Shown one piece after another: positions 3,022-8,443 of a stretch of 64,000 nt of DNA. How positions within the stretch are numbered: the stretch's first letter is position 1; each line of letters starts with the position of its first letter. The position numbers were made by a program, and so were the translations under genes. Source of the DNA: Ignavibacteria bacterium (GTDB lineage Bacteria; Bacteroidota; Ignavibacteria; Ignavibacteriales; SURF-24); assembly GCA_025612245.1 (NCBI GenBank), contig JAAXKQ010000002.1, positions 310,001 to 374,000 on the forward strand, in the 5' to 3' direction. The notes beneath the pieces are model-generated. The model was not told the DNA's origin and did not search any database. It saw only the letters and a program-made list of their open reading frames with translations.

Positions 3022-5511
3022 ATGAAGAAATCTCTACTTTTGGTTCTGCTCTCATTTATTCTTATCTCTACTCTAAAAGCTCAAACCCTGGATACCCTTT
3101 CAAGCCGGTATGTCGGACCCGGTATTCTCTACACCGATATTATTGCACGAAAGGTTCCATGGACTATAAAGGTCCTTAGGGTAGAACTTAAAAATCCTTA
3201 CATTTCATTTGAAGCCGTTAAGGCTAAAGATACTTACTTTGGTAACGAAAGAACCAGCGCAATGGCCCAGCGCAGGACTTTTACCGGTCACAATGTAGTT
3301 GGCGCGGTCAATGCGGATTATTACGACACGCAAAACGGGGCCATTACAAACATACAAGTCGGCAACGGCCAGATGTACAGGGGCCCTCAGAATGTCAGCC
3401 TCATCGGTTTTGACATTAACAATAAGCCGATGATCGATATCTGTAAGTTAAATTCTTTTGTGGTCTCAGGCGCAACGTCGCTTAAAATCAATGAGGTAAA
3501 CCAGGCCCGCGGAACAAACCAGCTGATACTTTATAACTTCTATAAGGGAACTGCTACGGGGACAGATGCCTCGGGCAGCGAAGCTCTCCTGAGGCCTACA
3601 GCACAATGGCTCGTAAATGATACGCTTAAATGCGTAGTGGAAAAAGTTGAAGACAAAGCAGGTAACATGGCAATCCCGGCGGGCAAGGCTGTCCTCTCCG
3701 GCAACGGAACAGCAGCTTCATATATAATGGATAATCTTCATGCCGGAGATACCGTAAAACTCTACATGGGAATTACCACCAGCCTTAAGAAAATTAAGGA
3801 GCTCGTAGGCGGCCATCCAAGACTCGTAAAGAACGGAGTCAACTATCTGGATGAAGCATTAAAAGGGGGAGAGCCCGGTTCAAGCACTACTACTCCTGCG
3901 CCAAGAACCATAGCCGGCATATCGAAGGATACTACTTATCTTTATCTGGTGACGCTTGACGGCAGGCAGACCAGCAGTGCAGGCGCCACGCTAGATGATC
4001 TGGCAAACCTAATGATAAGGCTCGGACTTTATGATGCATTTAACCTCGATGGCGGCGGATCTACGACTATGGTTGTAAGAAATAACGTCATGAATTCTCC
4101 ATCCGACGGCAGCGAACGCTCGGTGGCAAACTGCCTGCTGGTGGTTTCTTCGGCTCCAAAGGCTCCGGACACACTGGGCAGGGTCGGCTTTACTTACAAC
4201 TACAGCAAATTTTTAATCTACAGCGCACAGCGGCTCCAACTGAGCACTTATGCCAACGACAAGTACGAAAACGCAGCTGTTATTGATCCCTCTCAGCTAA
4301 GTTTCAGAGTCTCGCCGGAATTGGGTAAGATTGATAACAGCGGCTATTTTACGGCAGTCAAAACTCCCGCTAAAGGCTATATTTACCTAAAGTACAAGAA
4401 TCTTACCGATTCATCATATATCAGTTTGATACCAATAACAAAGCTTACGCTCCCGGATCCATTAGTCATTGACGCTACAAAGTCTGTTAAACTAATTGCC
4501 CACGTTTTTGCCAGCGATGAATCCGAAAGGACAGTTGCGACAACGGACATAAGCTGGAAATCCCTCGATACCAACATTGCAGTTGTTAATGCTACGGGCT
4601 ACCTAATGGGAAAGAGTGAGGGCAAGGTTAAAATAGTTGCCTCTTTCCTGGATGATGTTGCAGATACTTTGGAGGTTACAGTTTTAATTGGCAGGGGAAC
4701 TACAGTTGTCTCCCCGATGGACAGCCTTGCGGGCTGGAGCCTTTCGGGCTCTAACGTGGATCTGACTGCCTCAAAGCTCGGAGTTTCAGGTGAAAGTAAA
4801 TCCGAGGGTGCGGCTTCACTAAAGGTCGATTTTAATTATGCCTACGATCCCAGCTTCACTAACCTGGTGTATCTGGACACAAATATCCCATTTTATGGAA
4901 TTCCGGATACCGTATTTATAGACGCCAGGACGGATACTTCCACAAATCAAATATTCCTGGTTGTAGCGAACGACCAGAATAAAACGTTTAGAATACCTGC
5001 TTCCCTGGATATCTCGGGCAGTGACAGGTTCAGGAAGATTCCCTTTGTGATGAAGAAAAACATTCCTCTTAATGGAGTTCCAATTACATACCCGGTCAGG
5101 CTTACAAGGATAGTAGTTCAGCCGCAGTACAACGATACTCGCAGGATTGCAGGACAAAAGTACTCAGGAACATTTTATCTCGATAACCTGAGATTAAAAT
5201 ATCCTGCAGCTACAAATGCAGTAGGGGTAGATGAGAAAAAGTTGCCTGAAGGCTATTGGCTGATGCAGAATTATCCTAATCCATTTAACCCTTCTACCGT
5301 AATTAAGTTCAGAACCGTGCAGGAAGGCAATACCTCTCTTAGAGTATACGACCTCCTGGGAAGGGAAGTGGCAGTACTCATAAATGGAAGGCTTGCGGCA
5401 GGAGAGCACAGTGCCACGTGGGATGCTTCCAGATGCCCGAGCGGGATTTATTTCTACAGGCTCATTAGCGGAAGTTTCATTGAAACGAAAAAGATGCTCC
5501 TTGTAAGATAA
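3022..5511 (+). CDS. T9SS-exported phosphodiester glycosidase (NAGPA-like)
   Basis: This 829-residue protein has a signal peptide (MKKSLLLVLLSF...LKAQ). Residues of about 60-375 form a phosphodiester glycosidase domain of the NAGPA/DUF2233 family: VVGAVNADYYD near 90-100, LYLVTLDGRQ, then FNLDGGGSTTMV near 340-350, the family hallmark. Enzymes of this fold remove GlcNAc-1-phosphodiester or similar sugars from glycoconjugates. Residues of about 455-555 resemble a bacterial Ig-like (Big_2) domain. A beta-sandwich of about 180 residues follows, and the last 80 residues are a T9SS type A sorting tail (MQNYPNPFNPSTVIKF ... KKMLLVR). It is therefore predicted to be surface-displayed or released. 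It is preceded by GAGGACG a few bases before the ATG and followed by a strong terminator. The natural substrate cannot be read from the sequence. Confidence 0.88.
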   Translation: MKKSLLLVLLSFILISTLKAQTLDTLSSRYVGPGILYTDIIARKVPWTIKVLRVELKNPYISFEAVKAKDTYFGNERTSAMAQRRTFTGHNVVGAVNADYYDTQNGAITNIQVGNGQMYRGPQNVSLIGFDINNKPMIDICKLNSFVVSGATSLKINEVNQARGTNQLILYNFYKGTATGTDASGSEALLRPTAQWLVNDTLKCVVEKVEDKAGNMAIPAGKAVLSGNGTAASYIMDNLHAGDTVKLYMGITTSLKKIKELVGGHPRLVKNGVNYLDEALKGGEPGSSTTTPAPRTIAGISKDTTYLYLVTLDGRQTSSAGATLDDLANLMIRLGLYDAFNLDGGGSTTMVVRNNVMNSPSDGSERSVANCLLVVSSAPKAPDTLGRVGFTYNYSKFLIYSAQRLQLSTYANDKYENAAVIDPSQLSFRVSPELGKIDNSGYFTAVKTPAKGYIYLKYKNLTDSSYISLIPITKLTLPDPLVIDATKSVKLIAHVFASDESERTVATTDISWKSLDTNIAVVNATGYLMGKSEGKVKIVASFLDDVADTLEVTVLIGRGTTVVSPMDSLAGWSLSGSNVDLTASKLGVSGESKSEGAASLKVDFNYAYDPSFTNLVYLDTNIPFYGIPDTVFIDARTDTSTNQIFLVVANDQNKTFRIPASLDISGSDRFRKIPFVMKKNIPLNGVPITYPVRLTRIVVQPQYNDTRRIAGQKYSGTFYLDNLRLKYPAATNAVGVDEKKLPEGYWLMQNYPNPFNPSTVIKFRTVQEGNTSLRVYDLLGREVAVLINGRLAAGEHSATWDASRCPSGIYFYRLISGSFIETKKMLLVR

Positions 5512-6226: not shown

Positions 6227-6774
6227 TTATGATCCTTTAATTACCTTAGCTCCGCTACAGGCTATAATAAGTTATAGAGGCTAAAAAATGGGTACAGATA
6301 TTAAAAAAGGACAGCCATTTTATTTTCCTAATTTAGCAAAAGTTTTGTAACTGTCTGCAGTCAGAAATTTCAATTGTTGATTAATTCGAATTTAATTTCC
6401 AATAATAATAAACAGAAGAGCACATTTGAAACAAAAAAAAGTGCATGAGTAATAAAAAATAAAAGGCGCGGCATTCTATCGGGATCTTTATTCCCGCGTT
6501 TTTAAGCCCTCTTAGTGAAGATTTCCGGGGACTTCCTGATTGCTATAGTTACGCGGATTTTTAATACGATTGACTGATGGAAAATATTTTTGTAACTTTC
6601 TTTTACATGAAAAACGATTTATGGCAATGCCATAAATGATTATTCACCAGATTTCAGACAAATGAAATTTTAATCTCCTTTCAAATAAGCGCCCCTTACA
6701 AAGGGCGACAGTTCAATTCCCTTTTTCCGGGGAAAAATCTATCCATATTTAATTAAAGCCGGTCTTTATAGCTA
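6227..6774. promoter_or_regulatory. Long structured region upstream of the ABC-F gene
   Basis: About 550 bp lie here without a convincing gene. It holds several hairpins: CGGGA/TCCCG (6480-6496) followed by a T-run; CGCCC/GGGCG (6690-6707); and TTCCC/GGGAA (6717-6734). The last can alternatively pair with TTTCCCGG at 6797-6804 inside the leader peptide. Competing structures near a short upstream ORF are typical of attenuated ABC-F resistance genes. The promoter itself could not be placed. Confidence 0.4.
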
Positions 6775-6840
6775 ATGAATGTTATGCCTGCGGGAATTTC
6801 CCGGGGATATTTATTGCTTATGCCTGCTTTGCACACATAG
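6775..6840 (+). CDS. Candidate 21-residue leader peptide of the ABC-F gene
   Basis: ATG at 6775 opens a 21-codon frame (MNVMPAGISRGY...MPALHT) that ends in TAG at 6838-6840, directly before the Shine-Dalgarno sequence AAAGGAG (6841-6847) of the ABC-F gene. A perfect interrupted palindrome (CGGGAA-T-TTCCCG, 6791-6803) lies inside it. Short ORFs in this position commonly sense ribosome stalling by an antibiotic and open the downstream start. No strong ribosome-binding site precedes the leader itself, so it may be fortuitous. The internal in-frame ATG at 6820 is another possible start. Confidence 0.4.
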   Translation: MNVMPAGISRGYLLLMPALHT

Positions 6841-6853
6841 AAAGGAGATTTAT

Positions 6854-8443
6854 ATGTCACAGATAACCTTAAATAACGTAAGTTTTCATTACAGTACGCC
6901 ATACCAGGAAATATTCAGATCACTCTCAGTTTCAATTCCTGATGACTGGAAAGCGGCTCTTATAGGGCGGAACGGAAGAGGCAAGACGACGCTCTTTAAG
7001 CTTTTAACTGGAATTGAAAAACCTTCATCGGGCGCGGTAAGCATTCCATTTGAAGTGAAATACTTCCCTTACCTTCCCAAAAATCCCGGTGAAGCTGCTC
7101 AAAGGGTTATTAAGGAAAGCATTGCGCCTTATTCCTTCTGGGAAGAGAAGATGAATCTCTTGCTTGAAAAGGGGGACGATGAAAGCCTCAGGGAATACTC
7201 CGTATATTTTGACCTCTATATGCACCATGACGGGTACATAATTGATTCAATTATTGAAAGGGAAGCCGACAGAATAGGACTTGATGCTGAAGTGCTTAAC
7301 AGGCCCTTTGACACATTAAGCGGGGGAGAAAAAACGCGCGCCCTCATTTTGCCGCTTTTTTTGAGGAAGGATTCCTTCCCTCTTATTGATGAGCCTACAG
7401 ATCACCTGGATCTCAGCGGCAGAGAGTACCTGGCTGAATGCCTTGCGGGCAATAAAAAAGGCTTTATCGTGGCTTCACACGACCGCTACCTGCTGGACAG
7501 ATGTACGGATCATGTGATTTCAATAAACAAAACCGGCATAAAGGTAATGCAGGGGAATTACTCCGCCTGGAAGTATCAGTCGGATATTGAGGAGGAGTTC
7601 GAGCAGAGGCGGTATGACAACATACAGCGTGAGATAAACAGCCTCGAAAAAGCAGCGCAGCAGAGGCGGAAGTGGTCCGACAGCAAGGAGAAAGAAAAGT
7701 CGGGTGCTCCAGATAGCGGCTTTGTGTCGCATAAGGCTGCAAAGATGATGAAAAGGGCTACCTCAATTGAAAGGCGGATAGAAAACAATATTGAAAACAA
7801 AAAAGATCTCCTGAGGAATAAGGAACGTGAACTTTCCCTCAGGATGAAAGCTTCACTAAAGATGCCGGAAAGGCTGATATCAGTAAACGGCCTTAACGTG
7901 AGACTTAATGAAAATGAAATTCTTTCAGGAGTATACCTGAATGTTTTTAAGGGTGACAGGATTGCAATAACCGGAAGTAACGGATGCGGCAAAACCACAC
8001 TTCTTAATGCAATTGAAGGAACTGTGCCCGTAAAGGAAGGTGACATTTTTGTGGCCCCGAATATAAAAATTTCCAGGGCCTACCAGAATCCATTATGGCA
8101 GACGGGGCTTCTGAAAGACCATTTGTTTGAGGCGGGGCTGGATATGACAAACTTCCGTTTTGTAATGTCGGCACTGGAGATGACGGGAGAAATATTCGAT
8201 CATCCTCTAGAGACTTTCAGCAAGGGGCAGCTAAGGAAGATAGACCTTTGCAGAAGCATTGTCTCATCACCACAGCTACTCATCTGGGATGAGCCGCTTA
8301 ATTATCTCGATATTTCTTCGCGTGAACAGCTGGAGGAATTTCTTATAAGCCAGAAGCCTACAATTATATTTGTAGAACACGACAGGTTCTTTATTGAGGC
8401 CGTGGCAACGGAAGTAATAAGACTTGAAAAGCCGGGTGAGTAA
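6854..8443 (+). CDS. ABC-F family ATPase, Lsa-like ribosome-protection candidate
   Basis: This 529-residue soluble protein has two nucleotide-binding domains and no membrane segment, the ABC-F plan. Domain 1: Walker A GRNGRGKTT at 38-46, signature LSGGEKTRA, Walker B LIDEPTDHLD and switch His in ASHDRYLLDRC. A charged linker at about 240-345 would be the ribosome-contacting arm. Domain 2: Walker A GSNGCGKTT from 374, signature FSKGQLRK, Walker B WDEPLNYLD. DRYLLDRCTDHVISINKTGI closely resembles the Lsa/Vga-type antibiotic-resistance ABC-F proteins, which dislodge drugs from the 50S tunnel. I chose the ATG at 6854 because AAAGGAG ends six bases before it; an in-frame ATG at 6779 would add 25 unlikely residues. 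A housekeeping translation factor is the alternative. Confidence 0.85.
   Translation: MSQITLNNVSFHYSTPYQEIFRSLSVSIPDDWKAALIGRNGRGKTTLFKLLTGIEKPSSGAVSIPFEVKYFPYLPKNPGEAAQRVIKESIAPYSFWEEKMNLLLEKGDDESLREYSVYFDLYMHHDGYIIDSIIEREADRIGLDAEVLNRPFDTLSGGEKTRALILPLFLRKDSFPLIDEPTDHLDLSGREYLAECLAGNKKGFIVASHDRYLLDRCTDHVISINKTGIKVMQGNYSAWKYQSDIEEEFEQRRYDNIQREINSLEKAAQQRRKWSDSKEKEKSGAPDSGFVSHKAAKMMKRATSIERRIENNIENKKDLLRNKERELSLRMKASLKMPERLISVNGLNVRLNENEILSGVYLNVFKGDRIAITGSNGCGKTTLLNAIEGTVPVKEGDIFVAPNIKISRAYQNPLWQTGLLKDHLFEAGLDMTNFRFVMSALEMTGEIFDHPLETFSKGQLRKIDLCRSIVSSPQLLIWDEPLNYLDISSREQLEEFLISQKPTIIFVEHDRFFIEAVATEVIRLEKPGE

Follow-up and report, generated by a model that had tools for sequence, protein, structure and literature searches.

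The ABC-F ribosome-protection-like gene at 6854..8443 on the + strand of the window (the whole 64,000-nucleotide stretch of DNA analysed here) raises the question of what controls its expression. The original prediction proposed a 21-codon ORF, which ends just before the Shine-Dalgarno (SD) sequence of the gene, as a candidate leader peptide for antibiotic-induced attenuation. The gene itself was correctly recognized as an ABC-F. The encoded protein of 529 amino acids scores 433 bits with NF000355 (ribosomal protection-like ABC-F; cut-off 380) and contains two ABC_tran stretches, corresponding to two ABC domains, which places it in this family. Its score with the Lsa family model NF000167 (463 bits) lies below the cut-off of 750, and its nearest solved relative in a phmmer search is Lsa(A) (7nhk, E 3e-87). 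By homology, the protein may act as an antibiotic-resistance (ARE) factor against drugs of the large ribosomal subunit. The mechanical ORF list carries the frame upstream to 6779; because the relatives start at MSQI or MSHI, 6854 is the likely start, and it is also backed by an SD.

Counting the window's own genome (G000), we detected the gene in three of the 59 near relatives (E <= 1e-70), and the proteins of the other two, G001 and G004, are 78% and 69% identical to that of the window. It is carried by three of the five genomes of the family, and the protein is found in 15 of the 391 genomes of the class (E <= 1e-100); given this distribution, the proposal of intrinsic resistance in this lineage is only weakly supported. 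The neighbours of the gene in G001 are as in the window, and those in G004 are different. In G001 (L091, 1409-2491), an RsgA-like gene was noted by eye upstream, one gene away from the ABC-F gene, and in G605 (L131) another ends a short distance upstream of the ABC-F gene. Within the window, 3022-5511 encodes a large protein that looks secreted; it has a phosphodiester glycosidase domain and carries a Por secretion tail.

The region first put forward as the leader began at 6227, whereas the part conserved among the three genomes starts only at approximately 6570. There, a promoter-like site with a weak -10 element (TTGACT-N17-TAACTT, 6570..6598, + strand) aligns at equal spacing with TTGACT-17-TAATTT in G001 and TTGACA-17-TATTTT in G004, giving the consensus TTGAC[TA]-N17-TA[AT][CT]TT. 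A consensus promoter scan reported the G004 site only and none in the window or G001. Transcription would start near 6605. Beyond the promoter-like site lies a leader block of 79 nt (6609..6687, + strand), which is nearly unchanged: 74 of 79 positions are identical between the window and G001, 61 of 78 between the window and G004, and 62 of 78 in the third pair. At the fourfold-degenerate sites of the ABC-F gene, the same comparisons gave 62/158, 35/132, and 45/136. Because the block is near-identical while these sites are close to randomness (near saturation), it is under strong selection, and its conservation at the nucleotide level exceeds what a peptide alone would need. Since the similarity begins at the promoter-like site even though the neighbours differ in G004, promoter, leader, and gene appear to travel as a unit. 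The block is followed by a poorly conserved spacer with local hairpins (6690..6838, + strand), whose gap-free identities of 63/120 (G001), 76/141 (G004), and 46/118 (G001 with G004) are inflated by the alignment.

We found just two ATG-to-stop frames to be conserved across the three leaders: overlapping mini-ORFs within the block, each with its start and stop kept. The first, uORF1 (6636..6665, + strand), has nine codons and reads MIIHQISDK in the window, MIIHQTSEK in G001, and MSIHQSSQQ in G004 (consensus M[IS]IHQ[ITS]S[DEQ][KQ]), each followed by a stop. The second, uORF2 (6662..6673, + strand), has three codons and reads MKF-stop in the window and G001 and MRF-stop in G004, the changes of AAA to AGA and TTT to TTC being the only ones. 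The start of uORF2 overlaps the stop of uORF1 as ATGA, and no SD is visible before either frame. The variable columns of uORF1 are distributed 3/2/2 over the codon positions, which gives no coding signature, and uORF2 has two variable columns; with three sequences only, both are putative coding frames. Two other candidates for a conserved leader ORF, MKNDLWQCHK (6607) and MAMP (6621), were rejected, being absent from G004.

The stop of uORF2 overlaps an 11-nt segment, AATCTCCTTTC (6672..6682, + strand), which is a perfect complement of GAAAGGAGATT (6840..6850, + strand), the SD region of the ABC-F gene, and lies 157 nt from it. We refer to this segment as the anti-SD. In 274 of 20000 column shuffles, the end of a conserved ORF fell no more than 5 nt from the start of the anti-SD. 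In the lowest-energy folds, the SD and anti-SD form a duplex that has 11 uninterrupted pairs in the window, 14 pairs and one bulge in G001, and 12 pairs around a small interior gap in G004, with predicted pairing probabilities in the free leaders of 1.00, 1.00, and 0.95, respectively. The leaders as a whole fold better than their shuffled counterparts (z of -4.09 in the window, -4.43 in G001, and -2.47 in G004); in the window, 0 of 200 shuffles folded as well, which bears out the structured leader described in the original prediction. A complement as long as the anti-SD occurred in 3/2000 shuffled leaders for the window, 74/2000 for G001, and 204/2000 for G004. The complement is thus significant on its own in the window only, and the G004 duplex is unexceptional, as 55 of 500 shuffles did as well. 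SD-like motifs precede 10 of the 36 long ORFs of the window as compared to 6.2% of random places; the count took the farthest start and is therefore an underestimate, which missed the ABC-F gene itself, among others. Since the own 16S was not found in G000, G001 and G002 were used for the 16S tail, and both read GGATCACCTCCTTTCTA. Given this enrichment and these tails, hiding an SD is meaningful here.

Subsequently, we modelled the ribosome as a 31-nt footprint kept unpaired in constrained folding. A footprint at the start codon of uORF2 lowered SD/anti-SD pairing to 0.12 in the window, 0.51 in G001, and 0.00 in G004, and one with codon 3 of uORF2 in the P site abolished it in all three. The cost of opening the SD decreased from 10.3 to 2.7 kcal/mol in the window, from 10.9 to 2.7 in G001, and from 6.3 to 3.9 in G004 upon placing the footprint at the uORF2 start. 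With a ribosome on uORF2, the SD was unpaired on average at only 0.21-0.57, as other pairs form. A footprint at the start of uORF1 left the pairing at 0.96-1.00. A control footprint at -150 overlapped the anti-SD in G001 and was not clean, so the entire leader was scanned in 10-nt steps instead. Pairing was lost in all three leaders only over the anti-SD, the exceptions being G004, with a partial loss at -32 beside the SD, and G001, where the loss at -80 was slight. Release over the anti-SD only is expected from the pairing itself, and it is the reason why we assign the sensing to uORF2 instead of the 21-codon ORF.

Together, the conservation, the complementarity, and the predicted folds suggest that the ABC-F leader is probably a translation attenuator triggered by stalling on M[KR]F-stop. 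Two features expected of such a device were obtained by prediction: the SD is sequestered in the resting fold of all three leaders (0.95-1.00), and a ribosome on the uORF frees it in constrained folding, though only partially when it sits at the start codon in G001. Without drug, ribosomes would clear uORF2, the anti-SD would lock the SD, and little ABC-F would be made. A drug acting at the peptidyl-transferase centre would stall a ribosome on M[KR]F-stop, at the start codon or the first codons; the footprint of the stalled ribosome would cover the anti-SD, and the freed SD would permit translation of the ABC-F gene. The role of uORF1 would probably be to deliver ribosomes to M[KR]F-stop via coupling at ATGA. 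In this scheme, the transcription start, the translation of the uORFs, their coupling, the stalling, the induction, and the resistance are the steps that we infer. Counting against it are the small set of three sequences, the uORFs with no visible SD before them, the uORF1 start codon at the foot of a hairpin, a conservation beyond that of a peptide, the incomplete opening of the SD with a ribosome on uORF2, and the modest complement statistics of G001 and G004.

An alternative is that uORF1 itself is the stalling peptide, with a stall at its last codons opening the switch, either because a small hairpin at the end of the frame is broken or because the ribosome reaches the anti-SD. The conserved start and stop of uORF1 would fit this, as would the hairpin (UUCA/UGAR), which is paired in all three sequences. 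In the constrained folds, however, a ribosome at the start or at codon 5 of uORF1 left SD pairing at 0.94-1.00, and even at codon 9 it was still 0.86 in the window, 0.86 in G001, and 0.41 in G004. Moreover, residues 2, 6, 8, and 9 of uORF1 vary without third-position bias. We therefore consider it unlikely that uORF1 does the sensing.

The start codon of uORF1 sits at the foot of hairpin H1 (6617..6637, + strand), whose nine pairs are formed in 27 of 27 cells across the three sequences, one pair varying as UA/UG/CG. A covariation shuffle control for H1 was not significant (319/500), as is expected with three sequences. On the minus strand, 6609-6637 reads as H1 followed by T5, a terminator-like site that may mark an antisense end or an insulator. 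The block could be read as a DNA or antisense element, with H1 as an operator or with H1 and T5 as the minus-strand terminator of an antisense RNA. H1 with its T-run does score as terminator-like on the minus strand in the window and G004, and the AAAAA preceding H1 is invariant in the three genomes. Yet the H1 stem has only three GC pairs in the window, its loop differs by 2 nt in G001, which is awkward for an operator, and the region to the right of H1, where an antisense promoter would be expected, is unconserved. Neither an operator nor an antisense terminator explains the anti-SD, and we regard both as very improbable accounts of the block.

The 21-codon ORF (6775..6840, + strand) is present as described, reading MNVMPAGISRGYLLLMPALHT and stopping directly before AAAGGAG, and could in principle sense a drug or, through termination and re-initiation, couple translation into the ABC-F gene. 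ORFs ending near the SD also exist in G001 (MFCLPQCRP-stop, nine codons) and in G004 (29 codons with a TTG start), and both are unrelated to it in sequence. Conservation of the leader peptide had been set beforehand as the test that could refute the idea, and in the aligned upstream DNA we found no related ORF in either G001 or G004. Among 5000 dinucleotide-shuffled leaders, 2823 contained an ATG-initiated ORF of 21 codons or more at some position, which puts the length of the 21-codon ORF at chance level; in 109 such an ORF stopped no more than 3 nt from the SD, and 759 had an ORF of nine codons or more that stopped no more than 15 nt from it. Folding in alternative states separated the candidates: a footprint on uORF2 opens the SD, whereas footprints on the upstream part of the 21-codon ORF leave it locked, and a ribosome near the end of this ORF would itself cover the ABC-F SD. 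The ORF is probably incidental, and its acting as the sensor or by re-initiation is very improbable. Thus, ribosome-controlled attenuation, the class of mechanism originally proposed, is well supported, while the element that carries it is another one, a candidate switch approximately 90-165 nt further upstream. A 10-base direct repeat, TTATGCCTGC, was noted by eye within the 21-codon ORF at 6782-6791 and 6818-6827. Last, an RNA that hides the SD by binding a ligand or sensing temperature, without ribosome stalling, would suit the predicted sequestration and the nucleotide-level conservation, which includes the non-paired TATTCACCA, but is highly improbable, as no Rfam family matches anywhere in the window and the ABC-F genes of known regulation, as far as PMC10201436 describes them, use uORFs.

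Next, we searched for the block beyond the three genomes. Covariance models gave strong matches only in these three, both among the 391 genomes of the class (model R1) and among the 164 genomes of the order (model R2). In R1 the second helix was misplaced by two columns; the order search was repeated with R2, and the class and locus searches are from R1 only. Since strong matches are confined to the trio and the protein occurs in 15 of the 391 class genomes, the gene appears patchy and the leader limited to one family. With R1, 81 more distant loci (L011-L090 and L093) gave no strong score, and the exact block pattern had 0 matches in viral_contigs. Weak covariance matches outside the trio were followed by eye at seven loci. 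One of them, L101 (31.8 bits, R1), is flanked by convergent genes and overlaps the end of a coding region, and another, L100 (38.3 bits, R2; E 0.0047 per genome, with 164 genomes searched), precedes an unrelated gene; both were judged to be chance. Inspection by eye of the DNA upstream of the class homologues beyond the trio (12 loci, L093 and L124-L134) revealed no block, L125-L128 aside: the upstream DNA of the short locus L127 was missed, that of L126 spans only 158 nt, and in L125 and L128 the start codon is unclear. A look-alike was seen by eye in the class relative G152 (L093, approximately 1400-1500), where CCTCCTG, the complement of its own SD CAGGAGG, stands just before ATGAAGAACTGA (MKN-stop). 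No tRNAs were found in the window.

A terminator-hairpin scan detected a strong intrinsic terminator between the uORFs and the ABC-F gene in none of the three leaders. A looser scan of the + strand found none in the leaders of the window and G004 and one weak site in that of G001. The homologous Lsa-like ABC-F genes of more distant, mostly Firmicutes, bacteria (L011-L090) are approximately 36-42% identical, and among the leaders listed many have tiny ORFs and hairpins upstream. Their leaders differ from that of the window in lacking a strong block match and in that 42 of 77 readable ones carry a terminator-like hairpin (the short L016, L041, and L060 were dropped from the 80).

It is conceivable, and we propose it only tentatively, that the locus represents an ABC-F switch that dispenses with a terminator, in a non-Gram-positive lineage. 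ATGA-coupled ORFs of nine and three codons would form a two-stage ribosome sensor, the stop of uORF2 would lie inside a long-range anti-SD, and any stall at initiation or early elongation would release the main gene. If true, the same sensing logic, a very short ORF and a drug-stalled ribosome, would have arisen on a different expression platform in another lineage, one indicated by gene content such as Por secretion tails, and a compact leader would act on translation alone. With an 11-nt anti-SD and a three-codon ORF as its key parts, it would offer a simple test bed. A leader switch would also support the view that the ABC-F gene encodes a protection factor responding to drugs rather than a housekeeping factor.

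Our literature search returned no publication dealing with an ABC-F leader from the source lineage. Published uORF control of ABC-F genes, in the accounts cited here, concerns Gram-positive bacteria and mostly involves transcription terminators. By analogy, M[KR]F fits the series of uORFs reported by Obana et al. 2023, namely MR[I/M] for CplR, MIN for VmlR, MK[L/Q] for VmlR2, and MAGN for LsaA (PMC10201436). A close likeness is with the cplR leader of Clostridioides (uORF MRI): as described there, a three-codon M-[KR]-x uORF is combined with a hidden SD that stalling frees, as is predicted here, and translational attenuation alone is sufficient for the regulation of cplR. In cplR, the SD resides inside a terminator hairpin with a poly-U tract, whereas here its partner would be an anti-SD far away, on the stop of the uORF, and no strong terminator is seen; we claim no sequence homology between the two leaders. 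The vmlR leader of Bacillus subtilis (uORF MIN) likewise has a short uORF in the 5' leader and a sequestered SD, and its stalling is caused by lincomycin-type drugs; according to the account of Takada et al. 2022 (PMC9226507), it combines SD sequestration with an intrinsic terminator, of which no strong one is detected in the window leader, and also uses RNA polymerase pausing. The tetQ leader of Bacteroides, listed as a translation attenuator in a review (PMC5418344), similarly acts on translation of a ribosome-protection gene; tetQ is a different resistance gene from ABC-F, and the likeness extends to the review's description of the attenuator only. Compared with these known ABC-F leaders, that of the window is set apart by an anti-SD placed on the uORF stop, far upstream of the SD, and by its two overlapping uORFs.
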